Positions 1,854 to 36,290 of a stretch of DNA of 36,729 nucleotides are shown one piece after another. This stretch comes from Planctomycetia bacterium (GTDB lineage Bacteria > Planctomycetota > Planctomycetia > Gemmatales > Gemmataceae), in NCBI GenBank assembly GCA_005808665.1, contig SYLG01000144.1:1-36729 (forward strand). The letters run 5' to 3'. The translations under genes were made by a program, and so were the position numbers. Every line of letters starts with the position of its first letter. Within the stretch, counting starts at the first letter, position 1. Below the pieces are notes generated by a model. It was not told the DNA's origin. It saw only the letters and a program-made list of their open reading frames with translations, and searched no databases.

Positions 1854-2275
1854 TTACAGGAATTTTTTAGGTGCAAAAACCTCAACCGATTTGGTTTGGG
1901 GATCCCGCCAAAGGAAGCAATCCTTTCCATAATGCAAGGCTTTGGTGGGGGAGGGGACCGGGGCAGCATTCAGGAACGGGTAAAATCCAAAACCTAGGCG
2001 GGAATTGTACTTGCCGTGATTTGACTCCAAATGGGACAATGCCCTTGTAGGGTGGGCAAATCCAAAAACTGGCCATCCTCGTCATGGATTTGGGAAAGCT
2101 GGGAGAGGGTTTTCGAGACCACATCTTGGGATTGATTGTCCAAATATGCGTTCCGTAGGACTGGTGCGGTTTGAACGGGGGAGAAATTCCTTCTCCAATC
2201 AGTTCCGACAAAGTCTGAATATCCTCCCGGTCGATTCCTAAAAAGGTGCAACCCCGCAAGGGGTTCGCCCAGTTT
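1854..2275 (-). pseudogene. Possible decayed minus-strand gene in two or three frames
   Basis: On the minus strand the reading looks protein-like in successive pieces lying in different frames. One piece includes FLGIDREDIQTLSELIGEG (about 2170-2248). The next is in another frame, from a run of five C (2173-2180) to a TAG at 1994, and includes KTLSQLSQIHDEDGQFLDL. A third runs to a TAA at 1854 and includes KDCFLWRDPQTKSVEVF. Joined, they would give a fragment of about 140 residues. No start with a ribosome-binding site and no recognised family. The composition is like the coding regions and turns AT-rich just after 1854, as at a gene end. It may equally be non-coding leader DNA of the giant gene, so confidence is low. 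Confidence 0.25.
2250..2265 (+). promoter_or_regulatory. Hairpin with GCAA tetraloop in the leader of the giant gene
   Basis: AACCCC at 2250-2255 pairs perfectly with GGGGTT at 2260-2265 around a GCAA loop, a GNRA-type tetraloop. It ends about 60 bases before the ATG at 2327. No T-run follows, so it is not a terminator. A role in mRNA stability or folding is only an inference. Confidence 0.35.
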
Positions 2276-2326
2276 CTATACCGGTCCGTACACCCGGATG
2301 GAATTCTAAAGGGGTTGGAGAACAAC

Positions 2327-16520: not shown

Positions 16521-19500
16521 ATGAAACTCTTTTTGCATTGTGCATTTTTTTTTCTCTGCTGTCCGGGAATGGTCCTGGTAGCCAGGGAAGAGACCTTTTT
16601 TGAGTCGAAAATTCGTCCTGTCCTGGTGGAAAAGTGCTATTCCTGTCATTCGAAAAATGCCACAAAGGTCAAAGGTGGCCTTTTGCTGGATAGCCGTGCT
16701 GGTGTTTTAAAAGGAGGGGACTCAGGCCCGGCAATCGACTTGAAAGAGCCCCAAAAGAGCAAAATCCTGATTGCCCTGAGTTACGAAAATCCCGACCTCA
16801 GTATGCCCCCCAAGGGCAAGTTGTCCAGCGCGGTGATCAAGGATATGGCATCCTGGATTGCTTCCGGAGCCATTTGGCCTGGGGAACAGGTCAACACAAC
16901 TACCCAGAAAGATGTTTTCGATTTGGATAAACGGAAAGCGAACCATTGGGTCTGGACCCCTTTGCAATCCATGCTTCCCGGAAAAGGTAATTTGCCGAAG
17001 TCGTTGGATCCGGTTGATTGGTATTTGGAAAAGGCCCGGCGGGAAAAATCGGTCCAGGCAAGTGGACCTGCCGACCCAGCCACGCTTTTGAGAAGACTTC
17101 ATGTGGTGTTGACCGGTTTGGGTCCCAGGGAAGCGAATGTCCAGGCGTTCCTTGCCGATCCCAGCGAAGCCAATTATCGCAAGGAAGTGGACCGGCTTTT
17201 GGATTCATGGGAACATGCCGAGCATTTTGCCAGGCATTGGCTTGATCTGGTTCGCTATAGTGAAACTCGTGGTCATGAATTTGATTATACCATTCCAAAC
17301 GCATGGCAATATCGCGACTATGTCATTCGGGCAATGAAAGCGGACCTTCCTTACAATCGGTTCCTGGAGGAACACCTGGCCGGAGACCTGCTCTCCAATC
17401 CTCGCATGCGAACAGGTTCAGACTCCAACGAATCGGTTTTGGGAACCGGTTTTTGTTATTTGGGGGAGGAAATCCATTCGCCTGTGGATATTCGCCAGGA
17501 CGAAGCGGACCGATTTGACAATCGGATAGATGTGGTTTCCAAAACCTTCCTTGGGCTTACGGTTGCCTGTGCCCGCTGCCATGACCACAAGTTTGATGCC
17601 ATTTCAACGAAAGACTATTACGGTCTTTATTCTGTTTTTGAAAGTGCAAGTTACCGGCAGGTTCGTTTTGAACACAGGACAGCCAATGCCGCCCTTGCCA
17701 ACAAATGGTCAGGCCAACGGGCCCAAACGGAGGCAACGGTTGCCAAAGCTTTTGCCAAATTAATCAGGGAATCAGATGCGACCACACGGACCTTCCCCAA
17801 GGAAAGCCTCCTTTCGGCTTGGCTTGATGGGAAGGACGAAGTGCCTCCGGCCAACCCGGTTGTGGACTATGCCCAAATTTCCTGTTGGTATCCGGATGAT
17901 TTGAGTTTTGGGGCTGGCCCGCGGTTAGCCGGGGCAATTGACCTTTCCGGGAAAAATCCAGGATTGTTGCCTTACGGTGCGGCCTGCCGCGATCCGCTTT
18001 GGAATGGCATGGTTCCCGATCCCAAGGTTGAGAAGGAACCCGGGGCCCTGGCATATGACCGGACCGGACGAACACTAAAAACCCAAACTTTCAATGTTCA
18101 ATCTGGTGCCGTTTGGATCTGGATGCGGGGCCAGGCCAAAATCTACTCTTCCGTGGGTTCGCATGTAATGATTCTGGGGCCCCTTCATGGGGAGTTGGTT
18201 ACGGATTCGGGTGCCTCGGATGCATTTCGCTGGGTTCGACTGAACCTGACCCGCTACATTGGCCTCCCTTGCCATTTGGAATTCACCACAGACGATTCCC
18301 GATTTGCCCTGGCCACAGTTTTTGACCAAGTGGCCCAACCGGGCAACCCGGGTTGGGCATACTTTCCCAAGGGCAAAGCGGTAGCAAACCGTCACGATCA
18401 CCTGAAGATGCGTCTTTCCTATTGGGTTTCCCACCTGAAGGACCATGGCACTTTATCAGGCCTTGCCGATCATAAATGGGCTGCCCTAGTTCTTGCCAGT
18501 GCCATGGAGTCGCCAGCTTTTTCCGGGACAAATTCCTTGCCTGAAATTGTAGCATGGAAAAACCTTCTTGCCGGTTACTTTCCCAAACGGCAAATCCCTT
18601 CGGCCGTTGCCCCGGCCCTTTGGGAGGGTTCCCAGGTAAAAGACCATGTGTTTATTCGAGGGTCAACAAAGACCGCAGGGGCCATGGTAGAACCCCAAAA
18701 CCTGGAGGCCCTCGGAGGGGCCCTGAAGGGACCTGGCAGTCGCCGCCTGGAATTAGCCACAGCTTGGACCAACCCCCAGAAAACCCCTATGGTTCCCCGG
18801 GTAGCCGTTAACCGGATCTGGCACCACCTTTTTGGCCGGGGTATTATCCCAAGTGTAGACAATCTTGGGGTCATGGGAGATCCGGTTTTGCACCAGCCTC
18901 TTTTGGATCAATTAGCACTCGACTTTGTCCGGGATGGTTGGTCCAGCAGGAAAATGATCAAAAGACTGGTCCTCACCCATGCCTGGAGGCAATCCTCCGA
19001 TGCCTTGGCCGATGCGGTAAACCGTGATCCGGTAAACAGCCTTTTTCACTATTACCGTCCAAGGCGCATGAGCGGTGAGTCCATCCGGGACAACCTCCTC
19101 CTTGTTTCAGGACGCCTGAGCGATAAACGGTTTGGTCCACCTGCCGCTCCCTGGATTAACGATTTCCAGGAAGGGCGTGGTCGGCCGAATTCCGGTAAGC
19201 TCGACGAAGAAGGCCGCCGTAGTATCTATGTCGGAGTTCGGCGGAATTTCCTTTCCAACTGGATGCTTGCCTTTGATACACCGATTCCTTTTTCGACCGT
19301 GGGACGGCGTACAGAATCCAATGTCCCGGCTCAATCGTTGATCCTTATGAACCATCCCCTGGTCCATGAGTTATGTGAAAGCTGGGGGCAAAAACTGGCT
19401 CTTATGCCTGGAGATTCGGGGAATCGAATAAAGGCTCTTTACCTTCAAGCCTATGGGCGTGAAGCCACGGCGGAGGAGGTGAGCTTATGTCTTGATTACC

Positions 19501-19592
19501 TGCAATCACATAATTCCATTGCTGGGCCAGAAGGTTGGAAAGCCCTGACCCATGTTCTGGTAAACACCCGCGAATTTGTCTTCCTCCGCTAG
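16521..19592 (+). CDS. PSCyt1/DUF1549/DUF1553 planctomycete cytochrome-like protein
   Basis: A 1023-residue exported protein of the family often annotated as a DUF1553 or Planctomycete cytochrome C protein. Residues 1-21 form a signal peptide (hydrophobic FFFLCC core). PSCyt1 covers about 25-100 with a CYSCH haem-type motif (C39, C42, H43) and SMPPKG. DUF1549 (PSCyt2) spans about 165-370 with WLDLVRYSETRGHEFDY and a second CxxCH (C350, C353, H354, in CARCHDHKFDAI). Residues about 450-640 look like an inserted beta-sandwich (LamG-like) segment. DUF1553 (PSD1) runs from about 743 to 1010 with VNRIWHHLFGRGI and RRMSGESIRDNLL. ATG at 16521 has no strong ribosome-binding site but gives the signal peptide directly. 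First gene of an operon with the DUF1501 gene 29 bases downstream. Haem binding and any enzymatic role are family-based inference; the substrate is unknown. Confidence 0.92.
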   Translation: MKLFLHCAFFFLCCPGMVLVAREETFFESKIRPVLVEKCYSCHSKNATKVKGGLLLDSRAGVLKGGDSGPAIDLKEPQKSKILIALSYENPDLSMPPKGKLSSAVIKDMASWIASGAIWPGEQVNTTTQKDVFDLDKRKANHWVWTPLQSMLPGKGNLPKSLDPVDWYLEKARREKSVQASGPADPATLLRRLHVVLTGLGPREANVQAFLADPSEANYRKEVDRLLDSWEHAEHFARHWLDLVRYSETRGHEFDYTIPNAWQYRDYVIRAMKADLPYNRFLEEHLAGDLLSNPRMRTGSDSNESVLGTGFCYLGEEIHSPVDIRQDEADRFDNRIDVVSKTFLGLTVACARCHDHKFDAISTKDYYGLYSVFESASYRQVRFEHRTANAALANKWSGQRAQTEATVAKAFAKLIRESDATTRTFPKESLLSAWLDGKDEVPPANPVVDYAQISCWYPDDLSFGAGPRLAGAIDLSGKNPGLLPYGAACRDPLWNGMVPDPKVEKEPGALAYDRTGRTLKTQTFNVQSGAVWIWMRGQAKIYSSVGSHVMILGPLHGELVTDSGASDAFRWVRLNLTRYIGLPCHLEFTTDDSRFALATVFDQVAQPGNPGWAYFPKGKAVANRHDHLKMRLSYWVSHLKDHGTLSGLADHKWAALVLASAMESPAFSGTNSLPEIVAWKNLLAGYFPKRQIPSAVAPALWEGSQVKDHVFIRGSTKTAGAMVEPQNLEALGGALKGPGSRRLELATAWTNPQKTPMVPRVAVNRIWHHLFGRGIIPSVDNLGVMGDPVLHQPLLDQLALDFVRDGWSSRKMIKRLVLTHAWRQSSDALADAVNRDPVNSLFHYYRPRRMSGESIRDNLLLVSGRLSDKRFGPPAAPWINDFQEGRGRPNSGKLDEEGRRSIYVGVRRNFLSNWMLAFDTPIPFSTVGRRTESNVPAQSLILMNHPLVHELCESWGQKLALMPGDSGNRIKALYLQAYGREATAEEVSLCLDYLQSHNSIAGPEGWKALTHVLVNTREFVFLR

Positions 19593-19621
19593 GCCGACAA
19601 CCCGAAAACTGGGGAATTGGA

Positions 19622-21043
19622 ATGGATTCTCTGAATTATCACCCTTGGATGACCCGCCGCTCCTTACTTCGGGGAGGGTGTTTGGGTTTGGGAGCAATTG
19701 CAGCGGATGTCCTGGCAGGGAGGTTGGGTCTTGCCGATGTTTCAAAGGGTTCGGTGGATACATTGCACCATCGGCCACGAGCAAAAGCCGTCATTTTTCT
19801 TTACATGGATGGTGGGCCCTCCCAAATCGATACCTTTGATCCCAAACCTCATTTGGATAAATACGATCGCCAGGATCCCTATAAGTTAATGAAGGTTGAA
19901 CCGACGCAGTTTAATAGCATTGGAACGGTTCTTGCCAGCCCATGGAAATTCAAACAATTTGGCCAATCCGGGTTACCGATAAGTGGCCTGTTTCCCTTCA
20001 CAAGTGTCCATGCCGATAAATTGTGCATCATCCGGAGTATGGTTGCAAAATTCCCTGAACATACTTCTGCGAACTATTTCCTTCATACCGGTTTCGGCCT
20101 TCAGGGCAGGCCAAGTTGGGGTGCCTGGTTTGGCTATGGGTTAGGTTCTTACAACGATAGCCTTCCCTCTTTCATCGTTCTCAATGGAGGGCTGATCCCT
20201 CCCGGTGGCCTGGACAATTTCAATTCCGGTTTTTTACCGGCAGCATATCAGGCCTCGGTCCTGAAAGGGGCTGCGGCAGAACCCGTAGCAAACCTCAAAC
20301 CAAAAGAAAAATCCCCAAGGGATCAGCGCGAAAAACTGGCCTTGGCTGCCCAACTTGACAAAATTGCCAGCACAAAAAAGGGCATTTTTCCTGAATGGGA
20401 AGCTGCTCTCAAAAATCAGGAAACCGCTTTCCGAATGCAAACCGGCTTGCCCGAATTGGTGGATATTTCCAGGGAATCCAAAGAGTTGCAAAGGCGATAT
20501 GGTCTGGAAAGTTCCTACGAACCTACCAGGATTTATGGCCGTCAATGCCTTTTGGCACGCAGGTTTGTTGAGCAGGGTGTTCGCTTCATCGAAGTTACAT
20601 GTCCCAATGTCGGTTTCGACCGTTGGGACCAGCATAGCGACCTGAAAAATGGCCATGAGAAGAATTCCTTGGCGGTAGACCAGCCAATCGGTGCCTTGCT
20701 TGAAGATCTCAAAGCCCGGGGACTATTGGAGACAACATTGGTCGTCTTTGCCGGGGAGTTTGGTCGAACGCCTTTTGCCCAGGGATCCAATGGTCGCGAT
20801 CACAATCCCATGGGTTTTTCCATTTGGATGGCGGGTGGTGGGGTCAAGGGCGGCCTGGCGTATGGGGCCACTGATGAATGGGGCTACCGTTCCGTTGAAA
20901 ACCCTGTCCAGATCCATGACCTGCATGCTACCATGCTCCGCCTGCTTGGGGTGGATCACAAGCGGCTTACCGTTCGTTTTGGGGGCAGGGATATGCGCTT
21001 GACGGATGTGCATGGTGAGGTGGTTGAAAAAATCGTGGCATAA
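19622..21043 (+). CDS. DUF1501 protein, Tat-exported
   Basis: A 473-residue protein of the DUF1501 family, which has an alkaline phosphatase/sulfatase-like fold. ATG at 19622 is chosen over an in-frame start 29 codons upstream because it puts a twin-arginine signal at the N terminus (TRRSLLRGG, residues 11-19, then a hydrophobic stretch) and leaves the upstream gene intact. Family motifs are visible: FLYMDGGPSQIDTFDPK (59-75), WDQHSDLKNGHEKN, GEFGRTP (378-384), RDHNPMGFSIWMAGGG, and IHDLHATMLRLLG near the end. It is the second gene of the operon; DUF1501 and DUF1553 genes are paired very often in planctomycetes, which suggests a joint periplasmic job, unproven. Its stop is 17 bases from the stop of the convergent ACT gene. 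Confidence 0.93.
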   Translation: MDSLNYHPWMTRRSLLRGGCLGLGAIAADVLAGRLGLADVSKGSVDTLHHRPRAKAVIFLYMDGGPSQIDTFDPKPHLDKYDRQDPYKLMKVEPTQFNSIGTVLASPWKFKQFGQSGLPISGLFPFTSVHADKLCIIRSMVAKFPEHTSANYFLHTGFGLQGRPSWGAWFGYGLGSYNDSLPSFIVLNGGLIPPGGLDNFNSGFLPAAYQASVLKGAAAEPVANLKPKEKSPRDQREKLALAAQLDKIASTKKGIFPEWEAALKNQETAFRMQTGLPELVDISRESKELQRRYGLESSYEPTRIYGRQCLLARRFVEQGVRFIEVTCPNVGFDRWDQHSDLKNGHEKNSLAVDQPIGALLEDLKARGLLETTLVVFAGEFGRTPFAQGSNGRDHNPMGFSIWMAGGGVKGGLAYGATDEWGYRSVENPVQIHDLHATMLRLLGVDHKRLTVRFGGRDMRLTDVHGEVVEKIVA

Positions 21044-24496: not shown

Positions 24497-25687
24497 TTAG
24501 GGGTTCAAAACCAGTTTTGCACGAGTTTCAATTTCCTCCCACAAGGGAACCTTTCGGTATCCATAAAGCCTGGGGTCATTGGCAAGGTCTTTTGGATTGG
24601 CCTGTACGCATAGTATCCATGGAATGGTGGTGGGAAGGGAAGTGCCCCTTGTTAATCCCGAGTTCCCTTTAGGTAAATGGCCAAATTCCAAAAAAAGCTT
24701 TTTTTGACTCTGTTTTTCGACCAAACAAAGGTCAGGAACATGGAACCTTTTTCCCTCCATGAGCACTTCATGGGTTTCCAATAGTTCCCAGGATGCATTT
24801 GGTCTTTTGGTAAAAAGTGCCACCAGATCTTGCTTGATAGGGTTGGGCTGCTGAGGTGAGCTATCCACGGGCCTCAAACCAAGGCCACTATCCAAATGGA
24901 AAACCTTCGGCACTTTCCGTTTTCCCCAAGCCAGTTTTGCCTTTAACTCGAATTGTTCAAGGGATAGTACCCATGGAAAAAAACAGGCGAGCTGAAATCC
25001 ATAGCGATTTGTCCGGCCGAAAAGTGATAAGGGACCATCAAGGGTGATTTGGATTCGCCCGTTGGGTCGGCTTTCATAAGTGGCCAAAAGCCGATGAAAC
25101 CTTACCCTTTGAATGATTCGCCTCAGGTCCAGGGTATTGGGTTGAACCGCCTCGATAACGAGCGAGAGGGAATGCAGCAATATCCCCTGAACGAGGCCAA
25201 TGTTGTAGGCATGGATCAATCGTTCGGAGGAAAGGGACTCAAAACCCATAAGTAGTTGTTCCGCAGGCAAATCGGCAAACAATTTTGATTCCGATTGATC
25301 CGGATTCATTCCCACAACGGTTGCGGCTTCAGTGAGCAACCTGGTTCGGTCAAAGTTATTATCCTTTCGGGCAATTGCGGCCCGGGCAAACACCTCAAAT
25401 CGTAGTTGTTCTTCAAGTCCATCCAAACCTTCGGAGAATGAAGATCGTGATTGGAGGATATGATAAAATCCTTCCCAAATGCGTGGATTTCCAGGACCAT
25501 TAAGAAAGGGAGACGCCAATTCCCGTAATACTCGCCGCGTGGTTTTATCATGGGAGCAGGCACATTCCGACCACCAGTCGATAAATTGTTGGGTTGGGAC
25601 TTGCAACCATTCCGCGTTTGGTGGGAGATACTCCGGAAAAATTTCTTTGCCATCCATCCGCACAAGGGAAAGGTTACCTGTAAGCAT
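24497..25687 (-). CDS. DUF790 / Bax1-type nuclease, partner of XPB
   Basis: A 396-residue protein of the DUF790 family, whose archaeal member Bax1 binds XPB and cuts DNA with it. The hallmark LDGPLSLFGRTNRYGFQLA is at residues 217-235. Before it lie helical parts including YNIGLVQGILLHSLSL (161-176). The C-terminal nuclease-like core has PDL (D319) and LFLEFG (E334), matching the D...LEI/V-x-G pattern of the family; the usual GFWTPEY continuation is here HLPKGNSG, so catalytic activity should not be taken for granted. ATG at 25687 overlaps the helicase gene by 14 bases. Cytoplasmic; probably works with the helicase on damaged DNA. A gap of 160 bases separates it from the DUF1559 gene downstream. 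Confidence 0.85.
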   Translation of the reverse strand: MLTGNLSLVRMDGKEIFPEYLPPNAEWLQVPTQQFIDWWSECACSHDKTTRRVLRELASPFLNGPGNPRIWEGFYHILQSRSSFSEGLDGLEEQLRFEVFARAAIARKDNNFDRTRLLTEAATVVGMNPDQSESKLFADLPAEQLLMGFESLSSERLIHAYNIGLVQGILLHSLSLVIEAVQPNTLDLRRIIQRVRFHRLLATYESRPNGRIQITLDGPLSLFGRTNRYGFQLACFFPWVLSLEQFELKAKLAWGKRKVPKVFHLDSGLGLRPVDSSPQQPNPIKQDLVALFTKRPNASWELLETHEVLMEGKRFHVPDLCLVEKQSQKKLFLEFGHLPKGNSGLTRGTSLPTTIPWILCVQANPKDLANDPRLYGYRKVPLWEEIETRAKLVLNP

Positions 25688-27086
25688 CGTGATCCCGCCT
25701 CCTTACACTGGCATATTCTTCGGAGGTTTCGCGGGTAATTACTTCGTAAAGAGTGGCATGTTTGCTGCCTGATTTTCTGAGAATTCGGCCCAAACGCTGC
25801 ACATGTTCACGAACCGTGGAACTTCCTGACAGGACTATTCCCACAGCGGCAAGGGGCATATCAACCCCCTCATTGAGTACCCGGCTAGTAACTAGCGTTG
25901 GGAATTTGCCAGAGGCAAAACCTGTCAGGAGGATCTTTCGTTCCTTTGCCGGAGTCAGATGGGTTAGAGGGGGGATTAGCAAGTCTTTTGCGATTTTGTA
26001 AACCGTTGCATTGTCTACTGTGAAAATCAGGGTCCGTTCCCTGGCGTGGAGTTTGAGCAGGCTTTCCAAAACGGTGTTTTTAGCCGGATTCGTTTGGGGA
26101 ATCTGTTTTTGACGGCGAAAGGCACGAAATGCTGCCAGGCCTCCATCGACCCTGGCACAAAGGGAGATAAACCTGCCCCAGGCACCTTCGGTTGACATAT
26201 CGAGTTGGTGACGGGTGCAAAAATCCAGGTAAGCTTTGCGACAAGCCTTGTATTCGGACCTCAAAACGGGATCAAGGTCAACATAAATCCTTTTAGTAGA
26301 GTAATTGGATAGGTATTGCCCGGATAGGTCGGGTATCTCCCGTCGATATACAATGGGACCAATCAGACCATCATAACAGGAGAGGGGTTGTTCCATTTTC
26401 TCCGGGGTTGCCGTAAGGCCCAGCCGAAACGGTGCAATGGAACCGAGGGCAGAGGTGGAAAAAGCTGGCCCAGGGAGGTGGTGGGCCTCATCAAAAACAA
26501 TGAGGCCAAAACGGTTTCCCCACTTTTCCAAATGGATATGAGCCGATTGGTAGGTGCTTACGGAAATATCGGATAGGTCTTGTTCCCCACCCCCCATTTG
26601 GCCAATGGGGACCCCAAAGGCCAAATTCAGCTCCTTGCGCCACTGATTCAAAAGGTCAATGGTGGGGGTTACCACCAGGGTTGACCGTAGAGCCCGAATC
26701 ATGGCAAGGATGGCCACAAATGTCTTTCCCGTGCCTGTAGGCAGAACTACCAAACCACGGGCCCCGGAAGACCACCAATGGTCCACCGCATCCCTTTGAT
26801 GGGGAAAGGCAACCCTGTCGGTTTGGAGGGAAAGGGCCATTTTTTGATATTGTCTTGCCTCGTCAAGCAATGGGGTTTTGTTTTCTTTGGCGAGGCATAT
26901 CAAATCGCGATAACGGCATCCTTCGGCCCGAAAAACCAATTCCCTTTTATCCCACAGAACCCAGGGTGCCTCCTGGAGCCATCCGGGAATGAAACCTCTT
27001 ATGACAAGGGTTCCGGCCTCAAAACGGATCGACATTTCGTTAAGGGTTGGCACCTCATTTCCAAAGGGAAGGCCTTGCTCAGGCAT
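25674..27086 (-). CDS. XPB-family superfamily 2 DNA helicase
   Basis: A 470-residue ATP-dependent helicase of the bacterial/archaeal XPB (Rad25) type. The N-terminal 90 residues resemble the damage-recognition domain (AGTLVIRG, PWVLWDKRELVFRAEGCRYRDL). Motifs: FPHQRDAV (Q), Walker A PTGTGKT (116-122), DEAHH (199-203), TATP (225-228), TLIFTVDN (352-359), SRVLNEGVDMP (401-411) and motif VI QRLGRILRKSG (430-440). The RED motif expected just after TATP in XPB is degenerate (EKME). ATG at 27086 overlaps the end of the RND gene by eight bases, and its own end overlaps the DUF790 nuclease by 14. The adjacent nuclease argues strongly for an XPB-Bax1 pair acting in nucleotide excision repair or a related process; the exact lesion is unknown. 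Confidence 0.9.
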   Translation of the reverse strand: MPEQGLPFGNEVPTLNEMSIRFEAGTLVIRGFIPGWLQEAPWVLWDKRELVFRAEGCRYRDLICLAKENKTPLLDEARQYQKMALSLQTDRVAFPHQRDAVDHWWSSGARGLVVLPTGTGKTFVAILAMIRALRSTLVVTPTIDLLNQWRKELNLAFGVPIGQMGGGEQDLSDISVSTYQSAHIHLEKWGNRFGLIVFDEAHHLPGPAFSTSALGSIAPFRLGLTATPEKMEQPLSCYDGLIGPIVYRREIPDLSGQYLSNYSTKRIYVDLDPVLRSEYKACRKAYLDFCTRHQLDMSTEGAWGRFISLCARVDGGLAAFRAFRRQKQIPQTNPAKNTVLESLLKLHARERTLIFTVDNATVYKIAKDLLIPPLTHLTPAKERKILLTGFASGKFPTLVTSRVLNEGVDMPLAAVGIVLSGSSTVREHVQRLGRILRKSGSKHATLYEVITRETSEEYASVRRRDHDAYR

Positions 27087-30000
27087 GATTCTCTACCTGG
27101 TTTGGACCAAAATATCTACCAAGCCAGGCACGCAGGTCTTCCATGAGAACATAAAAAACGGGAACAAAAATCAATGAAACCAGAGTGGATACGAGGATAC
27201 CGCCAATGATGGCACGGGCCATGGGTGCCCGGGTTTCCGCCCCAGGGCCAAGCCCGATGGCTGCCGGGATGGCCCCGGCAATGGTAGCAATGGAAGTCAT
27301 CAGGATGGGCCTAAGCCTCAATGGTCCCGCCGCAAGGACCGCATTACGCGCGCTCTTTCCGCCCAGGCGGGCTTGCTCCGCATAATCGACCAAAATGATC
27401 GAGTTTTTCTTGACTAGTCCCATCAGGAGTACCAAGCCAATCATGCTCATCATATTCAGGGTGTCCCCGGTGAGCCAAAGGGTTGCAAGAGCCCCGGTGA
27501 CGGCAAAGGGCATTGCCATCAAAACCGTTACCGGATGAATCAAGGAATTAAATTGTACTCCAAGAATCATATACGCTACAAAGATGCCAAGGAGCAGGGC
27601 AATTGCCAAGCTCGAAATGGTCTCTTCCATGGCCTTGGCATTTCCTAATTCCACGACCTGGTACCCTGCAGGAAGGATTTCCTTAGCAACCTTACGGACC
27701 TCGATCAGGGCGTCTCCCTGGCTTATCCCTTGAGCTGGATTTGCCGTGATGTTTACGCAGCGTTGGTGATCGTGGCGCCTGATGGTTTGCAAGGTGGATT
27801 CATGTTGGAGGTCCTCGATCAAATCCTCCACCCTTACAAGTTGATTATCCCCCAACCGGACCGGTAAAAAACGGAGTCGATCCGGGCTATCGCGGTCCTG
27901 TTCCAAAAGGCGCATGCGCACATCATAACGCCTGCCATGGTCAGTGAATTTGGCCACTCTTTCACCCCCCACGAGGAGGCTTATGCTTGTGGCAAGCCTC
28001 TCGATGGGCAGGCCCATCATAGCCAGTTTTTCGCGATCCGGCCGAATTCGAACCTCGGGCATTCCGGAGCGAAAATCGGTATAAATGTCAGCAAAAAGGG
28101 GCAATCCTTCCTTTGTCTGACATGCCTCCATAGCCCGTCCAAGAGACTTGGAAACGGCACCAAGGGATCCACCTGGGCCGATCACGGCAAGATCTATGGG
28201 ATAGCCTTGTTGGGCGGTGAAGCCCTCGGTGGATTGGTCACGGGGAATGATTTGGAGATCCTGAACAACGCCAAGGTTTTCCCGCAATTGGCCTATGACC
28301 CCGGTCTGGGAAACGGAGCGATCGCGACGGGGTTTTAGCCGGACAAATAGGTCTCCTTCATTGAGGACCGGGTTGGTGTCCGTTCCGATGGTGGACAAGA
28401 CACTTTCGACAGACTGGTTTTCCAGAATGATTTTCTCGCAATCACTCAAAAGCCTGGACATTTGATTGATGTTGGTTCCCACCTGGGCAGTGGCATGAAA
28501 CAAAATCCTGCTCTGATCCTCGGATGGAACCAATTCGCGTCCAAGGCGGTTTCCGGTAAAAAACCAGCCGTTTATTGCTGTCAACAAAATGCCAAGTGCC
28601 AGAACCACGGGCCAAAAAGCCAGGGACCAGCGCAAAACCCCGCTGTAGAAGTGTTCCATTATTTTCATCAGGGTATCGACAGGCCATTGCAGGATTGGGC
28701 GAATGATCCAGTTGCCCACGAAACCAAGGATCCTTGGCAACCCATAGCGGAGAAAGACCATTGTAAGGCCACCCAATCCGGCTCCGAGGACAAGGCGACC
28801 ATAATACAAAATGGAAGTATCCACTTTGGGGAGGGGAAATTCCGATTCCAGGAAATCCATGGTTGAACCCATCCAAGCCATCCAGGTCGGGCGATTGGGT
28901 TGGCAGCCAAAATAAATAAAAACGACTCCCATTATGGCCCCGGTTGCCAACCACTTTAGCCAGCTTTTTTTTGGGGAAGGAGGTGAGTTCTGGTGTCGTC
29001 CTTCGGGGAAATAGGCCGCCAACATGGGGGTTAGGGTAAGGGAACACAAAAGGGATAGGGATACCGCCACGGCTACGGTCACACCAAATTGGAAGAAAAA
29101 TCGGCCAATGACTCCTGTCATAAACGCCACAGGGAGGAAAATGGCAACAATGCTAAGGGTCGCAGCCATGGCGGCAAATTGAATCTCCCGGGTCCCCTTT
29201 TTCGCCGCCCGTCTACGGCTTTCACCCTTTTCTTCGTGCCGATGAATGTTCTCCAGAACCAGAATGGCATCATCAACGACGACACCAACCGACAGCGAAA
29301 GGGCCAAAAGGGTCATGAGGTTCAAAGTGAAGGGTGGGAGGCCAAACCAGCTTAAAAAATCCTTGGTAAAAAAAAAGGTTCCCAGGAGGGATGTTGGAAT
29401 CGTCAGGCAGATGTTCAGAGTTGTGGTAAAGCTTCCCAAAAAAGCATAGCAAACGATGCTTGTCAGGAGTACCCCAAGAATGAGGGTTAACTGGAGCTCG
29501 TGAATGTTCTCTTTGACAAACTCGGAACTATCGACCGATACCGCCAATTCGACCCCTTCCGGGAGGAGTTTCCTTAGTCGGGGTAGGGCACTTTGAATCG
29601 AATCACATACCTCCACAAGGTTGCCCCCGATGGCTTTGCGTACACCAAGGGCCACCGCAGGCAGGCGATTGAATCGCGCCAGGCTTCGGCGGTCTTCGCC
29701 CCCATCCTCCAGGATTGCGACATCTCCCAAATGGATCGTTTGATCGTTGCGCCTGGCTACAACCAATCGGCGAAATTCCTCCGCATTTTCAGCTTCGCCC
29801 ATGGTTCGCAGGTTGAATTCAACCTGATTGCTCTTGATGTACCCGGCCGGTAATTCTGCGTGTTGGCTTTGGATTGCGGCCCGAATATCCTCGGCTGTCA
29901 AGGCAAAGGCTTCAAGCCTTTCAGGGTCGATCCATAGCCGCATGGACCTGGCCTGTAGCCCGGCGAATTGAATGCCACCCACACCATAAAGCGAACTGAT

Positions 30001-30495
30001 TTCGGCTTTCAAAACGCGATCCGCCAAATCGCTGAGTTTATGAGGGGCAAAGGGGCCGGCCAAGGTCAACCATATAACGGGTAGGTTATTGGGATTGACT
30101 TTGGAGATTATGGGAGGATCAATATCAACGGGTAGGCGCCGCCTGGCCGAAGCCACTGCATTTTGGACATCCTGCATCGCCGCATCAACATCGCGATCAA
30201 GCTTGAAATAGACCGTTACAATGCTCGTCCCTTCGGAACTTTGGGATTGAATGGAATCGACTCCCTCAACGCTGGCTATCGCATCCTCGACAACATCTGA
30301 AACATCACCGTCCATGATTTCAGGAGAAGCCGCTTCGCGGTTGATGACTACACTTACCACCGGAAAATCGACTTCCGGGAATTGGCTAATCCCCATGGTT
30401 CGGTAACTCATCCACCCAAAAATCACAAGGGCGAGGGATACCATGACCGCAAAGACAGGGTTTCGGATGCTAACATCTGAAAGCCTAAGACTCAT
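27079..30495 (-). CDS. RND efflux transporter (second of pair), enlarged
   Basis: An inner-membrane resistance-nodulation-division pump of 1138 residues, HAE1/MdtB-MdtC type, driven by proton flow. TM1 is near residues 14-30 (VFAVMVSLALVIFGWMSYRTMG). The TM4 acidic pair D408-D409 lies in SVGVVVDDAILVLENI. Late TM segments include SLAIALLLGIFVAYMILGVQF and MIGLVLLMGLVKKNSIILVD. It is about 90-100 residues longer than usual because the linker between TM6 and TM7 is expanded and carries two further hydrophobic stretches (WLATGAIMGVVFIYFG and LVLGAGLGGLTMVFL). Start ATG overlaps the stop of the first RND gene (ATGA). Substrate unknown; drugs, metals or lipids are possible. Confidence 0.92.
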   Translation of the reverse strand: MSLRLSDVSIRNPVFAVMVSLALVIFGWMSYRTMGISQFPEVDFPVVSVVINREAASPEIMDGDVSDVVEDAIASVEGVDSIQSQSSEGTSIVTVYFKLDRDVDAAMQDVQNAVASARRRLPVDIDPPIISKVNPNNLPVIWLTLAGPFAPHKLSDLADRVLKAEISSLYGVGGIQFAGLQARSMRLWIDPERLEAFALTAEDIRAAIQSQHAELPAGYIKSNQVEFNLRTMGEAENAEEFRRLVVARRNDQTIHLGDVAILEDGGEDRRSLARFNRLPAVALGVRKAIGGNLVEVCDSIQSALPRLRKLLPEGVELAVSVDSSEFVKENIHELQLTLILGVLLTSIVCYAFLGSFTTTLNICLTIPTSLLGTFFFTKDFLSWFGLPPFTLNLMTLLALSLSVGVVVDDAILVLENIHRHEEKGESRRRAAKKGTREIQFAAMAATLSIVAIFLPVAFMTGVIGRFFFQFGVTVAVAVSLSLLCSLTLTPMLAAYFPEGRHQNSPPSPKKSWLKWLATGAIMGVVFIYFGCQPNRPTWMAWMGSTMDFLESEFPLPKVDTSILYYGRLVLGAGLGGLTMVFLRYGLPRILGFVGNWIIRPILQWPVDTLMKIMEHFYSGVLRWSLAFWPVVLALGILLTAINGWFFTGNRLGRELVPSEDQSRILFHATAQVGTNINQMSRLLSDCEKIILENQSVESVLSTIGTDTNPVLNEGDLFVRLKPRRDRSVSQTGVIGQLRENLGVVQDLQIIPRDQSTEGFTAQQGYPIDLAVIGPGGSLGAVSKSLGRAMEACQTKEGLPLFADIYTDFRSGMPEVRIRPDREKLAMMGLPIERLATSISLLVGGERVAKFTDHGRRYDVRMRLLEQDRDSPDRLRFLPVRLGDNQLVRVEDLIEDLQHESTLQTIRRHDHQRCVNITANPAQGISQGDALIEVRKVAKEILPAGYQVVELGNAKAMEETISSLAIALLLGIFVAYMILGVQFNSLIHPVTVLMAMPFAVTGALATLWLTGDTLNMMSMIGLVLLMGLVKKNSIILVDYAEQARLGGKSARNAVLAAGPLRLRPILMTSIATIAGAIPAAIGLGPGAETRAPMARAIIGGILVSTLVSLIFVPVFYVLMEDLRAWLGRYFGPNQVENHA

Positions 30496-33400
30496 GAAGG
30501 ATTCTCCAGGGAAACAGGGGAGGGGATCGTGCAGGAATTAGCCAAGGACTCTCCTTTGTAACCAAACCGCAGGGAAATCTCTTCCAGCCAGAGGAAAATA
30601 ATGGGAACGGAAATCAGGGTTACCAAGGTTGATAGGGCAACCCCGCCAATGATGGCCCGCGCCAAAGGGGCACGGGTTTCAGTACCCGGACCGATGCCAA
30701 GTGCCAAAGGTAATGCCCCTACGATGGTTGCCATGGAGGTCATCAAAATAGGGCGTAAACGCCTGGGACAGGCAAATAAAAGGGCTTGCCGCGGTGCCAT
30801 TCCGCTTCGGCATGCCTGCAAGGTCACATCCACAAGGATGATCGAGTTTTTCTTTACCAACCCCGCAAGAAGAATGAGGCCAATCATGCTCATCAGGTTT
30901 AATGTGTCCCCAAACCACCAGAGCGTTGCCAAAGCTCCGGTAAGGCCAAATGGTACAGCCGCCAAAACGGTGAAAGGGTGGACAAAGGAATTGAATTGGA
31001 TTCCAAGGATCATGTAGGCAACCAGGAATCCAAGGACCAAAGCATCCCAAAGGCTTCCCATGGTTTGTTCCATGGCTTTTGCATTGCCCATTTGCACAAT
31101 CCGGTAGCTTTCCGGGAGGCCAAGTTCCTCCCGACAAAGACGCGCCATTTCCAGGGATTTTTGAATGGCATCCCCTTGGGATATTCCAGGTACCATGTTT
31201 GCCGTGATCTCTACTTTCCGCAAATGGTTGTACCTGGCAATGAGGGGCAACATGGATTGGATTTCGGTTTGGGCCAGTTCCTCAAGGGACACAAAATTCC
31301 CCAAGGGAGCATTTTCGGGCTGGGTTGGGTTCCCGATTTTGAGTTGAATCTTCATTAGGTCATCCGGAGATTGTCTCTCTGGTTCGAGGTTCCGAAAGCG
31401 CACATCATAGCGCCGATTGCCTTCGGTAAATCGCCCCCCGCGAAGTCCTCCAAACTCGACATTGACAGTCCAAGCCAGTTTTTGTGTGGAAAGGCCCATT
31501 TGGGACAATTTGTCCCGATCCGGATGCAGGTGGGCCTCCACCATTCCAGGCCGGTAATCGGTGTTCACATCACTGACGAATCCCCCATTTATGAGCCTTG
31601 TCCGGATGAGTTCAGAATAACGGATTACCTTTTCCCATTCCGGCCCCTGGATCGCAAAATTAATCGGAAATCCTCGGCCAGAACTGAAGCCTTGGGTGGA
31701 AAGATCCAGCACTACGGCCCGCAAACCGGATATTTTCCCGAGAATAGAACGAGATTCATTGATCAATTCGGTTTGGGTGAGACTTCGCTCCGTGGACGGG
31801 ATGAGGCGAATGAATATGGTTCCCTCGCTAATAAGTGACCCGGGGCGTATGCTCACAGCGGAAAACATGGATGCAATGAGTTCCTCGCCATTTTTGGGAT
31901 CCTTTAATTGCATCATTGCCTTTTCGGATTCCCTGATCATTTTGTCTACATAGTCGATGCTTGATCCTACCGGGCAAATGACATTGATGATAAAACGGTT
32001 CTGGTCTTCACTTGGAATGAGTTCGCGACCGATCGGTTTGAAGGTCCATGCGGCTGGTTTTCCTTCCTTGAAAAACCAGCCAGGGAGTGGAATGGTCACG
32101 CCATTGAGAAACAAAAAAGCCCCAAAGGTAAGGGTCAGGCTAAGGCATAATACGCTCCGTCTCCATTCCATGATCACGCATAGTATAACCCTGTAGAGAT
32201 CTTCCAATTGGCCAAGTACCCAGTGAACCGGGCGGACGATAATGGGTGACAACAAATAGCGGTCAAGCAACATCATCAACGACCATGGAATGCCAAGGAA
32301 CAGGTTTCCCTTCCTGGGCACTTGCCCCATTCCCAAAAGAAAACGGGAAAGAACCGGGATGATGCTCAACGAAATCAAAAGGGAAAGGAGAACCGCAACC
32401 GAAACCGTGATCCCGAATTGATAAAAAAACTTTCCCGCGGCTCCTTGCATAAAAGCAACGGGAATAAAGATCGCCACAATGGAAAGGGTTGCCGCACCTG
32501 CGGCAAAGGAAATTTCCTGTCCACCTTTTAATGAGGCCAATCCCGGGGATTCTCCTTCTTCGAAACGCCTGATGATGTTTTCCAGAACCATTATCGCATC
32601 ATCCACCACGACCCCGACCGAAAGGGACAAGGCCAGCAACGACATGAAATTGAGGGTGAAATTCAGCCACCACATTACCACAAGCGTCCCCAGAAGGGAT
32701 GCTGGGATGGAAATGCAAACAGTAAAGGTAGATCCAAAAGATCCTAAAAAGAGGAATGTTACCAGGGCCGTCAGTATGATACCCAGAACCAGGGACCCTT
32801 TCACCTCCTCAATATCGTCCCGGATAAATGCCGAATAATCAACGCTGACTCCCACCTTTACATCCGGTGGGCAAATCGCATCCAGTTTTGGGATGCGCCT
32901 TTTGACCTCATCACAAAGTTCCACCACATTGGCACCTTGGCCTCTAAGAACCCCAATTCCCACCGTGTTCATACGGTTGAATCGACCCATACCCCTTTTG
33001 TCGCTCAAACCGTCTTCCACGACCGCAAGTTCGCCAAGGGGGGTTACATCCCCTGCTTTTCCCCTGGCCAGGGGCATTTTCCGAAAGTCATCCCTGTTTC
33101 TAGACTCCCCCAAAAAGCGCACCGTGGTTTCACGATTGAGACTGTTCAGGGTTCCCGCAGGCCGTTCTACCTGATTACTCCGGAATGTCTGGAAAAATTC
33201 CATGGAGTCCATGCCGTGAGTTCGCGTCGTTTCAGGATCTATCCAAATCCGCATATTGCGTTGTCTAAGCCCCGAATACATCACCCCCCCACAACCAGGA
33301 ATGGTTTGGATCATCTGTTTGAGATGGTCATCCACCAACCGGTTCAATTCCTGGATGGGTCGTGGACCATTAAGTGATAGCCACATTACAGGAAATTTGT

Positions 33401-33800
33401 TGAAATTGACTTTATTGATTACGGGCGGGTCGATGTCGGTAGGCAATCTCCGCATGGCGGTGGAGACCGCATTTTGCACATCCTGCATGGCATGGTCCAC
33501 ATTGCGGTTCAAATCGAAGAAAACCGTCATGACCGATTGCCCCTGAAGGCTTTGGCTCTGGATATAGTCGATCCCTTCAATCGTGGACACCGCATCCTCA
33601 AGGATGTCCGTAACATCGTTTTCCATGATTTCAGGCGATGCGGCCTCACGAACCGTGGAAATGTTTACGACGGGAAAATCGATCTCTGGAAGTTGGCTAA
33701 TGCCCAGTTTTGAACCTGCAAGGCCACCGAAAACGACCATGGACAGGGTTACCATGATCGCAAAAACGCTTTTGCCCAAACTTAACCGGACGAGATTCAT
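30492..33800 (-). CDS. RND efflux transporter (first of pair)
   Basis: A 1102-residue RND pump, similar in layout to its downstream neighbour but clearly diverged from it, so this is an old duplication. TM1 near residues 12-28 (VFAIMVTLSMVVFGG), then porter domains with SPEIMENDVTDILEDAV and DVQNAVSTAMRRLPTDIDPP. The TM4 pair D400-D401 is in SVGVVVDDAIMVLENI, and the C-terminal half has GRELIPSEDQNRF, PFTVLAAVPFGLTGALATL and LIGLILLAGLVKKNSIILVD-like segments. It starts in an ATGA overlap with the fusion-protein gene and ends in an ATGA overlap with the second pump. One fusion protein followed by two RND genes is the order of E. coli mdtABC, where the two pumps form a mixed trimer; the same is inferred here. 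No outer-membrane TolC-type gene is in the window. Confidence 0.92.
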   Translation of the reverse strand: MNLVRLSLGKSVFAIMVTLSMVVFGGLAGSKLGISQLPEIDFPVVNISTVREAASPEIMENDVTDILEDAVSTIEGIDYIQSQSLQGQSVMTVFFDLNRNVDHAMQDVQNAVSTAMRRLPTDIDPPVINKVNFNKFPVMWLSLNGPRPIQELNRLVDDHLKQMIQTIPGCGGVMYSGLRQRNMRIWIDPETTRTHGMDSMEFFQTFRSNQVERPAGTLNSLNRETTVRFLGESRNRDDFRKMPLARGKAGDVTPLGELAVVEDGLSDKRGMGRFNRMNTVGIGVLRGQGANVVELCDEVKRRIPKLDAICPPDVKVGVSVDYSAFIRDDIEEVKGSLVLGIILTALVTFLFLGSFGSTFTVCISIPASLLGTLVVMWWLNFTLNFMSLLALSLSVGVVVDDAIMVLENIIRRFEEGESPGLASLKGGQEISFAAGAATLSIVAIFIPVAFMQGAAGKFFYQFGITVSVAVLLSLLISLSIIPVLSRFLLGMGQVPRKGNLFLGIPWSLMMLLDRYLLSPIIVRPVHWVLGQLEDLYRVILCVIMEWRRSVLCLSLTLTFGAFLFLNGVTIPLPGWFFKEGKPAAWTFKPIGRELIPSEDQNRFIINVICPVGSSIDYVDKMIRESEKAMMQLKDPKNGEELIASMFSAVSIRPGSLISEGTIFIRLIPSTERSLTQTELINESRSILGKISGLRAVVLDLSTQGFSSGRGFPINFAIQGPEWEKVIRYSELIRTRLINGGFVSDVNTDYRPGMVEAHLHPDRDKLSQMGLSTQKLAWTVNVEFGGLRGGRFTEGNRRYDVRFRNLEPERQSPDDLMKIQLKIGNPTQPENAPLGNFVSLEELAQTEIQSMLPLIARYNHLRKVEITANMVPGISQGDAIQKSLEMARLCREELGLPESYRIVQMGNAKAMEQTMGSLWDALVLGFLVAYMILGIQFNSFVHPFTVLAAVPFGLTGALATLWWFGDTLNLMSMIGLILLAGLVKKNSIILVDVTLQACRSGMAPRQALLFACPRRLRPILMTSMATIVGALPLALGIGPGTETRAPLARAIIGGVALSTLVTLISVPIIFLWLEEISLRFGYKGESLANSCTIPSPVSLENPS

Positions 33801-35110
33801 GGACTTTTTCTCTGGCTTAAGTCCATTTCAGCAAGGATTTTAACCGAAGATTCCTCGTCCAACGCCAATGGGGTCCCCTCTTCAAGGGCCTCCGCTCCCC
33901 TTCGGACAATCCAGTCCCCAGGACGCAAGCGATCCAAAATTTCCACAACTCCAGGTCGCCTCCTGCCGGTCTGCAGCCTTTCCACCGCTTCGGCTTCCCA
34001 TTCTATTTTGCCATCACCCCTGAATAGGGGTTTTGGCCTAAACACGAGGAAACCTCGCTCCGTAGCACGCAAAGATTCTTCGGGAATGATCATGGTTTCT
34101 CCTGCCGATGCGACAGGAATGTATAACTTTGCGGTGAATCCCGGGCGGATTCCCTGGGTGGCTGCCCAAGGGGGAAGTTCCGCCTTGCACTCAAACATAT
34201 GGGTGTCGGGATTGCCTGTTGAACTTAGGTAGAAAAGCTTGGCATTAAAAACCCTTCCCGGAAAACTCCTGAGGGTAAAAGGCACCAAATACCCCTCCTG
34301 AAGGGCACCGCTATAATACAGTTGGCTGGTAATGATCCCTTGCCATGGTCCGGATACCAGACTGGTGGCGAATCTCAACTCCTCCTGTCCCGGAAGTGTT
34401 CGTTGCCTGTTCTGGGTGCTTTTTTCGATTTGAATGCGGACAAGTGGGGTCGACCGCTCCGGGATGAATCCAACCACCCGAAGTTTGGTAAGATCTGCAA
34501 GGGTGCCAATGACTGTTTTATCTTCAACAAAACTACCTAAATTGATCCGCTTCTGGTTGATTTGCCCACGAAAGGGGGAACGGATGATGGATCGCTTCTG
34601 ATTGTACTGGGCAAGGGCATAATTTGCCGTGGCTTCTCCTACCTCTGCCTCTCCCAGCCGCACATCTCCAACCAACCGGGCTCGTTCTTCCCTGCTCACC
34701 CCAATGCCTGCCCCCAGGGATATTCCTTGCAGGTTTTTGGCTTTTTCCAAACCGGCTTTTGCTTTATCCAAAGTGCTTTGGGATATTTTCAACGCCGTTT
34801 CATAACGGCTTTGATCGACCTTTACCAACGGTTGGTCCTTTTCCACCCATTGTCCCTCACGGAAAAGGATTTCTTCCACAACCCCTGAGGTCCCGGCAGC
34901 GATTTCCGATTGGCTTTCCGATTCCACGAATCCCACGGATTCCACATTCGACTCGAGGCGGGTTAAACCCACCTTTTCAACGGCTACGGACCTTCGAAGT
35001 CGGGCTTGGGAGGGTTTTCCCGTGGTGGAGCCGGTCTGGTCCGTTCCCGACCTGGAGCACCCCACCATGAGCCCGAGGGAACACAAAAACAGGCTGATTG
35101 TAAGTCGCAT
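33797..35110 (-). CDS. RND membrane-fusion protein (lipoprotein)
   Basis: The periplasmic adaptor of the efflux pump, 437 residues. A lipoprotein signal ends in LMVGC, with lipid-carrying C18. A lipoyl half (AAGTSGVVEEILFREGQWVEKDQPL, about 71-95) is followed by a coiled-coil hairpin of about 105-175 (LDKAKAGLEKAK and EERARLVGDVRLGEAEVGEA). The second lipoyl half and barrel follow (SPFRGQINQKRINLGSFV, 178-195), then ADLTKLRVVGFIPE and a membrane-proximal region (IIPEESLRATERG; ILDRLRPGDWIVRRG). ATG at 35110 gives the signal peptide; the ribosome-binding site is weak. First gene of the five-gene overlapping operon; its promoter must lie in the 229 bases shared with prs. Confidence 0.92.
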   Translation of the reverse strand: MRLTISLFLCSLGLMVGCSRSGTDQTGSTTGKPSQARLRRSVAVEKVGLTRLESNVESVGFVESESQSEIAAGTSGVVEEILFREGQWVEKDQPLVKVDQSRYETALKISQSTLDKAKAGLEKAKNLQGISLGAGIGVSREERARLVGDVRLGEAEVGEATANYALAQYNQKRSIIRSPFRGQINQKRINLGSFVEDKTVIGTLADLTKLRVVGFIPERSTPLVRIQIEKSTQNRQRTLPGQEELRFATSLVSGPWQGIITSQLYYSGALQEGYLVPFTLRSFPGRVFNAKLFYLSSTGNPDTHMFECKAELPPWAATQGIRPGFTAKLYIPVASAGETMIIPEESLRATERGFLVFRPKPLFRGDGKIEWEAEAVERLQTGRRRPGVVEILDRLRPGDWIVRRGAEALEEGTPLALDEESSVKILAEMDLSQRKSP

Positions 35111-35237
35111 AATGACCCGCCAAGGGTGGATAAAGGGGATTACCTTGGCATTTTAGGATAGGTGGATGACCAATTCATGAGAAATAGCACAAGTTTGGAA
35201 GGTTCAAGAGGGCTGAAACCAATAGGGATTAGGGTGG

Positions 35238-35260
35238 TTGGACCCAAGATTCTTGGACCC
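35238..35260. repeat. Direct and inverted repeat between prs and the efflux operon
   Basis: TTGGACCC occurs twice, at 35238-35245 and 35253-35260, with starts 15 bases apart. The joint also makes the inverted repeat CCAAG-3-CTTGG (35244-35256). It sits in the divergent promoter region and could be a regulator site, which is inference. Confidence 0.35.
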
Positions 35261-35281
35261 TGCATCCCGATTTCTTAAAAA
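35253..35281 (+). promoter_or_regulatory. Weak candidate prs promoter
   Basis: TTGGAC (35253-35258), 17 bases, TAAAAA (35276-35281). Spacing is ideal but both boxes are poor matches. The second TTGGACCC copy covers the -35 box. Confidence 0.25.
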
Positions 35282-35339
35282 ATCAGCATTGGCCCTCTCC
35301 AGTCGGGGCTCCTTTCTTTGATTGAGCACACAAAAAACC

Positions 35340-36290
35340 ATGCTTCACGACGAACTTCGGGTCTTTAGTGGTCGGGCCAATCTTCCCCTGGCGGAAAAAA
35401 TTGTCCAGCACCTTGGAGGGACGCTTGGACGAATGACCGTGGGAAATTTTCCGGATGGGGAAACTTCCGTTCGAATCGAGGAGGATGTCCGGGGTCGCGA
35501 TGTTTTCATTGTCCAGCCAACCTGCCCCCCGGTAAACGAACATTTGATGGAACTATTGGTAATGTTGGATGCATTCCGAAGGTCCAGTCCGGCCCGGTTA
35601 ACCGCAGTATTACCCTATTATGGCTACGCCCGCCAGGATCGTAAGGATGTGGGACGGGTACCCATCACCGCCAAATTGGTGGCAAACCTCCTGACCAATG
35701 CTGGAGTCCACCGGGTATTGGCACTTGACCTTCATGCCGCCCAATTGCAGGGTTTTTTCGATATTCCTGTCGACCATTTACATGCTGCCCCGGTTATCGT
35801 GGAACATGTCAGTTCGCTGAATATTCCAAGCGACGATTTCATCGTTTTGAGCCCGGATGAGGGAAGCATAAAAAAGGCGCTAACCTTTCAAAAAAAACTG
35901 GGTGGGTCCATTGCCATCGTCGATAAAAGGCGCTCAAGTGCCACGGAAACCAGCCAAGCCAACCTGATTGGGCCATCCCTGGAGGGTAAGGTGGTCTTTA
36001 TTTTTGACGATATGATTTCCACGGCTGGGAGCGTTGTCGGAGCCGCCCATGTCGCCAAGGCCCACGGGGCAAAAGAAATCCATGTTTGTGCCACCCATGG
36101 TGTTTTGGTTGGCCCGGCTATTGAAAGGCTAAAAAATGCCCCGCTCCAGTCGGTTATTGTCACCGATTCCATCCCTCTGACACCCCATAAACAACTGCCA
36201 AAAATCAAGGTTTTGAGTGTGGCAGGCTTGCTGGCGGATGCCATCAAACGGATTCATAAAAACGAATCGGTAAGCAGTTTGTTTGTCTAA
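35340..36290 (+). CDS. prs: Ribose-phosphate pyrophosphokinase (PRPP synthase)
   Basis: Makes phosphoribosyl pyrophosphate from ribose 5-phosphate and ATP, the precursor for purines, pyrimidines, histidine, tryptophan and NAD; cytoplasmic. It has 316 residues, a normal class I length. Motifs: LRVFSG (6-11) and NFPDGET (36-42) at the N terminus, the catalytic/ATP region YYGYARQDRK (93-102), DLHAAQLQGFFDIPVDHLHA (130-149), and the PRPP-binding loop FIFDDMISTAGS (220-231). SPDEGSIKKA (171-180) replaces the more usual SPDxGGxxRA. ATG at 35340 is preferred because known members start M-x-D-E-L-x-V-F-S-G; an in-frame TTG six codons upstream is possible, and neither has a strong ribosome-binding site. 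Confidence 0.96.
   Translation: MLHDELRVFSGRANLPLAEKIVQHLGGTLGRMTVGNFPDGETSVRIEEDVRGRDVFIVQPTCPPVNEHLMELLVMLDAFRRSSPARLTAVLPYYGYARQDRKDVGRVPITAKLVANLLTNAGVHRVLALDLHAAQLQGFFDIPVDHLHAAPVIVEHVSSLNIPSDDFIVLSPDEGSIKKALTFQKKLGGSIAIVDKRRSSATETSQANLIGPSLEGKVVFIFDDMISTAGSVVGAAHVAKAHGAKEIHVCATHGVLVGPAIERLKNAPLQSVIVTDSIPLTPHKQLPKIKVLSVAGLLADAIKRIHKNESVSSLFV

Follow-up and report, generated by a model that had tools for sequence, protein, structure and literature searches.

The five minus-strand genes described here, which encode an efflux adaptor, two RND permeases, a short XPB helicase and a DUF790 (Bax1-like) nuclease, form an old, inherited unit whose order is shared across a clade. We consider it rather probable that an RND efflux operon acquired a pre-existing XPB–Bax1 bicistron, with co-expression inherited and the two machines working independently. 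Shared transcription of the five genes is likely; a joint function of the two halves is no more than possible, and across the family the data tend to speak against an obligatory tie between them.

Organisation of the five-gene block

The window, that is, the whole stretch of DNA analysed, comprises bases 1-36729 of contig C134 in an assembly of 4.48 Mb and 186 contigs. The initial annotation had read a run of five minus-strand genes overlapping by 4, 4, 8 and 14 bases, and all of these open reading frames were found at the coordinates below. Pfam and NCBIfam agree on the domain names it had given them (fusion protein, RND, RND, XPB and DUF790).

35322..36290, plus strand: PRS (ribose-phosphate pyrophosphokinase; Pfam), conserved divergent neighbour
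35111..35321, no strand: short divergent intergenic region, 211 bp; a TetR gene lies at the same place in relatives, none here
33797..35110, minus strand: gene 1, adaptor (membrane fusion protein); HlyD_D23/HlyD_3 (Pfam), TIGR01730 RND_mfp above cut-off
33797-33800, minus strand: adaptor/RND1 overlap, 4 bases
30492..33800, minus strand: RND1, first RND permease; ACR_tran, E 6e-224 (Pfam)
30492-30495, minus strand: RND1/RND2 overlap, 4 bases
27079..30495, minus strand: RND2, second RND permease; ACR_tran, E 1e-254 (Pfam)
27079-27086, minus strand: RND2/XPB overlap, 8 bases
25674..27086, minus strand: XPB helicase, short, archaeal-type, with DRD domain, 470 aa; ResIII, ERCC3_RAD25_C and XPB_DRD (Pfam, the last two above cut-off)
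25674-25687, minus strand: XPB/DUF790 overlap, 14 bases, coding for HDAYR at the C terminus of XPB and for MLTG at the N terminus of DUF790
24497..25687, minus strand: DUF790 / Bax1-like nuclease partner, 396 aa; DUF790, E 2e-54 (Pfam)

The pump belongs to the AcrB family and is a tandem pair. RND1 and RND2 are two distinct permeases, RND1 forming one clade apart from RND2 in the tree, and the layout, an adaptor gene and then two dissimilar RND permease genes within a single operon, is that of operons of the MdtABC/MuxABC type. The pump differs from these systems in its scores, in the divergent TetR-type gene found in relatives and in the XPB-DUF790 genes appended to it. The adaptor exceeds its RND_mfp cut-off. 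The permeases reach none of those for MdtB, MdtC and RND_permease; RND2 scores 545 against an MdtC cut-off of 1774 and 531 against an MdtB cut-off of 1584, and RND1 also lies under both. The earlier description of the pump as MdtABC-like holds for the tandem-permease layout but not for the MdtB/MdtC equivalog scores. The adaptor is a periplasmic one, and its translation reads a lipobox-like MVGC close to the N terminus.

The XPB–Bax1 pair and its distribution in bacteria

By sequence and predicted fold, the XPB and DUF790 proteins of the window are a true XPB–Bax1 pair. A profile built from 27 family XPB proteins matched Archaeoglobus (A.) fulgidus XPB (6p66_A) at E 3e-148, and the DUF790 profile matched the solved Bax1 chains. 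The AlphaFold2 model of the window DUF790 protein (mean pLDDT 86) aligned with five Bax1 entries at Z 23.7-27.6, the next entries standing at 7.7. Both proteins therefore resemble the archaeal complex (A. fulgidus, S. tokodaii; PDB 6p66, 6p4o, 6p4f) by sequence, and DUF790 also by predicted fold, the common features being the DRD and helicase domains and the PD...E nuclease core. In contrast to the archaeal pair, that of the window is bacterial and lies behind an RND pump, its RED residues are altered, motif III (GFW) is missing and the first acidic nuclease-domain residue is probably lost. The operon XPB shares its helicase family with the canonical bacterial XPB (NF045503) but is shorter, archaeal-like and paired with DUF790, and it reaches 168.6 bits against that model's cut-off of 610; the same genome carries a second, longer XPB-like gene on contig C88. 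Assignment to a defence system was rejected: DUF790 matched no PADLOC model, and XPB was hit only through helicase domains that belong to other systems.

The pair is ancient and widespread in bacteria. Of 80 loci from many phyla (Planctomycetota, Myxococcota, Acidobacteriota, Lentisphaerota, Poribacteria and other groups), 64 have DUF790 directly 3' of XPB and on the same strand. A start codon allowing the identical 14-bp overlap is present in 23 of these and in 10 of the 31 family pairs that are adjacent. As in the window, the majority of the overlaps, but not every one, code HxAY where XPB ends and (M/V/L)LT where Bax1 begins. Since the overlap recurs across phyla, in Gemmataceae-type, Acidobacteriota and Myxococcota loci, it must be old. 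In one class-level relative (L046:9140-16110) DUF790 is found about 3.8 kb downstream of XPB rather than adjoining it. The initial annotation was right to recognise an XPB–Bax1 pair, although its view of the pair as archaeal proves too narrow. According to a 2012 paper no bacterial XPB–Bax1 complex had been identified (PMC3353954), and bacterial XPB function has been called elusive (PMC13024598); our comparisons add a gene pair that is widespread in bacteria and shares an ancient 14-bp overlap.

Across bacteria XPB and DUF790 stand adjacent without a pump, and the upstream neighbours of XPB are varied. No independent pump–XPB linkage was found in the 80 loci save for one doubtful case. Two candidates were not accepted as such linkage: an Isosphaera locus (L119), where a 786-aa open reading frame with partial ACR_tran similarity lies just before XPB, and L129, where an RND gene is on the opposite strand.

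Conservation of the pump–repair order

In a survey of 95 family genomes, 75 carry an XPB-type orthologue and about 23 an orthologue of the adaptor or of RND2, with strong orthologue-level RND2 matches in 20 family genomes other than that of the window. The linked order adaptor-RND1-RND2-XPB-DUF790 is present in 12 species of four genera: g1, which includes the window; g28 (G029); g19, with seven species, in some of which contig ends truncate the block; and g22, with three species, in two of which (G094 and G023) a contig end cuts XPB. The proteins are about 50-60% identical across these genera, and PRS lies divergently upstream of the block or pump in g1, g19, g22, g28 and g29. The order is thus neither unique to this genome nor, as the initial annotation had offered as the dull alternative, a chance merging of operons, its recurrence in 12 species being more than chance. 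What stands of the proposed single operon is a unit of five genes, arranged so that cotranscription is possible and kept in the same order in four genera. The 8-bp overlap at the RND2/XPB junction does not recur: those relatives whose starts are clear have gaps of 5 to 32 bp at this point, and for g22 the start is uncertain. The clade-wide linkage, the conserved PRS and the divergent TetR gene of relatives had escaped the initial annotation. Among the papers available for searching, none describes a pump–XPB operon.

The join is clade-restricted, and pump orthologues and XPB are both present but unlinked in g6, g13, g31 and g34. Absence of the block from the congeners G001 and G002 could not be used as evidence of loss, because the neighbouring PRS is unmatched there too and the region is probably missing from the assemblies. 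In G029, two Band_7 (SPFH) open reading frames sit between RND1 and RND2 (L033:13243-15029).

Gene adjacency in the block is conserved above average. When G107 was compared with the window genome, close codirectional gene pairs were kept in 7 of 21 cases and those of the block in 7 of 7, in a small sample covering about 0.6 Mb of G000 and about 0.45 Mb of G107 and with non-independent tests within the block; this difference leaves room for selection on linkage. Within g19, each of the five genes has a dN/dS of about 0.02-0.08 where computable, indicative of purifying selection.

Separability and origin

Pump and pair are separable in both directions. G030 has the order PRS-TetR-adaptor-RND1-RND2 followed by an anthranilate synthase gene (TrpE), with exactly XPB-DUF790 missing and no short XPB detected anywhere in the genome, and G020 has the same order with the pair between RND2 and TrpE (PRS-TetR-pump-XPB-DUF790-TrpE). 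Conversely, in G026 PRS is directly divergent from XPB-DUF790 and there is no pump orthologue. Over the 95 genomes, presence of the pump and of the pair is unassociated (19/21 vs 56/74, Fisher p=0.23; by genus p=0.69).

The join probably arose once. In each half of the RND tree, RND1 as well as RND2, the linked pumps group together to the exclusion of the unlinked ones (support 87 and 93). The G030 pump is nested among the linked pumps, a position that points to a single origin and subsequent loss of the pair in G030. In the XPB tree G029 does not group with the rest of the linked species, which makes a second origin or a transfer possible, although a single clade is not rejected (p-AU 0.124).

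The TetR gene

A TetR_N protein of about 200 aa is encoded divergently from the adaptor gene in g19, g28 (G029), g29, G030, G023 and G014; the G023 match holds one in-frame TGA, and in G014 the gene is divergent from the pump although that pump is unlinked to XPB. This arrangement resembles AcrR/TetR-regulated efflux operons, in which a divergent TetR_N protein adjoins the adaptor gene, but the window genome departs from it in lacking TetR and in an operon that runs on into DNA-repair genes. Here the TetR gene has been lost: only the 211 bp separate PRS from the adaptor gene, and no close TetR orthologue was found in the genome. Predicted promoters and terminators did not rise above shuffles.

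Motif changes in XPB and DUF790

The window XPB retains Walker A (GTGKT), DEAHH and QRLGR, while its RED motif reads KME where nearly all relatives have R-x-D; the changes are conservative. Mutations of RED in the archaeal protein lower DNA binding and ATPase activity (PMC7672443). In the DUF790 protein columns E285, G337 and W339 are changed and the NUS-domain motif residues are partly lost. With respect to the acidic triad of AfBax1 (E275, D305 and E318), it keeps the D and E of PD...E, two of the three metal-ligand positions, and the likely E275 column holds K in an uncertain part of the alignment. The acidic residue D305 matters for incision by the XPB–Bax1 complex (PMC7293015). With several otherwise conserved motif residues lost from both proteins, the pair of the window may not be fully active in repair. 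A missing GFW motif was ruled out as proof of a dead nuclease, since ELFH.WH is used at that place in other phyla.

At family-conserved columns the window DUF790 protein departs at 34 of 87, compared with 13-25 for the tested Acidobacteriota and Myxococcota copies, and XPB at 25 of 174. XPB and DUF790 of g19, g22 and G026 are likewise unusually divergent, and those of G029 are normal. As the acceleration is seen in pump-less G026 and not in pump-linked G029, it does not track linkage.

Proposed origin and competing explanations

We propose the following course of events. An XPB–Bax1 bicistron would have been gained downstream of RND2, probably once, in the ancestor shared by a subclade of one Gemmataceae-type family, by an RND efflux operon that has a divergent TetR-family gene at its flank in most relatives. 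A single promoter upstream of the adaptor gene would most likely drive all five genes as a single transcript, and a regulator may bind at the operon. The pump would export compounds with a TolC-like outer-membrane partner presumably encoded elsewhere, and XPB–Bax1 would act separately in the cytoplasm, where it may open and cut damaged or forked DNA.

The initial annotation had gone further and suggested a joint response to DNA-damaging compounds, a view that the distribution of the two halves does not bear out. Under such functional coupling, a DNA-damaging compound would be answered both by the pump, lowering its level inside, and by XPB–Bax1, excising the adducts, with a TetR-type sensor switching both. 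Retention of the order over four genera at this protein divergence, the adjacency of the block against its background and the divergent TetR gene of several relatives all speak for coupling. However, pump and pair part in both directions, their co-occurrence does not exceed chance, the combination does not clearly recur across phyla (the one doubtful case among the 80 loci aside), TetR also accompanies the unlinked G014 pump and has disappeared from the window genome, and in the window lineage the Bax1 motifs are decaying; we regard coupling as doubtful. We judge it unlikely that the operon is a bacterial stress module whose single ligand-sensing promoter switches on, together, the export of a genotoxic compound and the excision of its DNA adducts by XPB–Bax1. 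If pump and pair were coupled, export and repair would be joined in a single operon. A clade in which the pair lies behind an efflux pump, with TetR next to the pump in relatives, gives a concrete regulatory handle, and candidate inducers, with which to approach the role of XPB–Bax1 in bacteria.

Two further accounts would detach the repair genes from the pump or from repair itself. XPB-DUF790 might be transcribed from its own promoter inside RND2, the conserved order being residual synteny: background synteny at such divergence is not negligible, PRS is conserved beside the block without a known tie to either half, and RND2 holds a promoter-like site at 27478-27449, of a kind no commoner than chance. 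Yet in the linked genomes whose starts are clear the junctions overlap or nearly abut (from -8 up to about +32 bp), and in g19 purifying selection acts on all five genes; we regard this account as quite improbable. It would be more surprising still, and we hold it to be highly improbable, if the window pair were a weakened or repurposed passenger whose nuclease and fork-binding motifs erode while the reading frames stay intact. The excess of departures in DUF790 over the Acidobacteriota and Myxococcota copies, those in XPB, the three changed DUF790 columns and the KME reading, at a motif whose archaeal mutants are impaired, point that way; against it, the PD...E ligand positions and the checked helicase motifs are retained, a differing motif III also occurs in other bacterial lineages, the g19 copies are under strong purifying selection, and the acceleration is present in G026 without a pump and absent from G029 with one. 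Acquisition of the bicistron by an efflux operon, with the two machines independent, is the reading that we retain.

Additional observations

A second PRS-adaptor-RND1 copy is found in G111 on contig C58 (L088:7807-12634), cut at the end of the stretch examined. Elsewhere in the window, an open reading frame of 4694 aa at 2246-16330 with PATR and FG-GAP repeats probably encodes a giant secreted or surface protein, and 16521-21043 encodes a PSCyt1/PSCyt2/PSD1 protein followed by DUF1501, a pair typical of planctomycetes.
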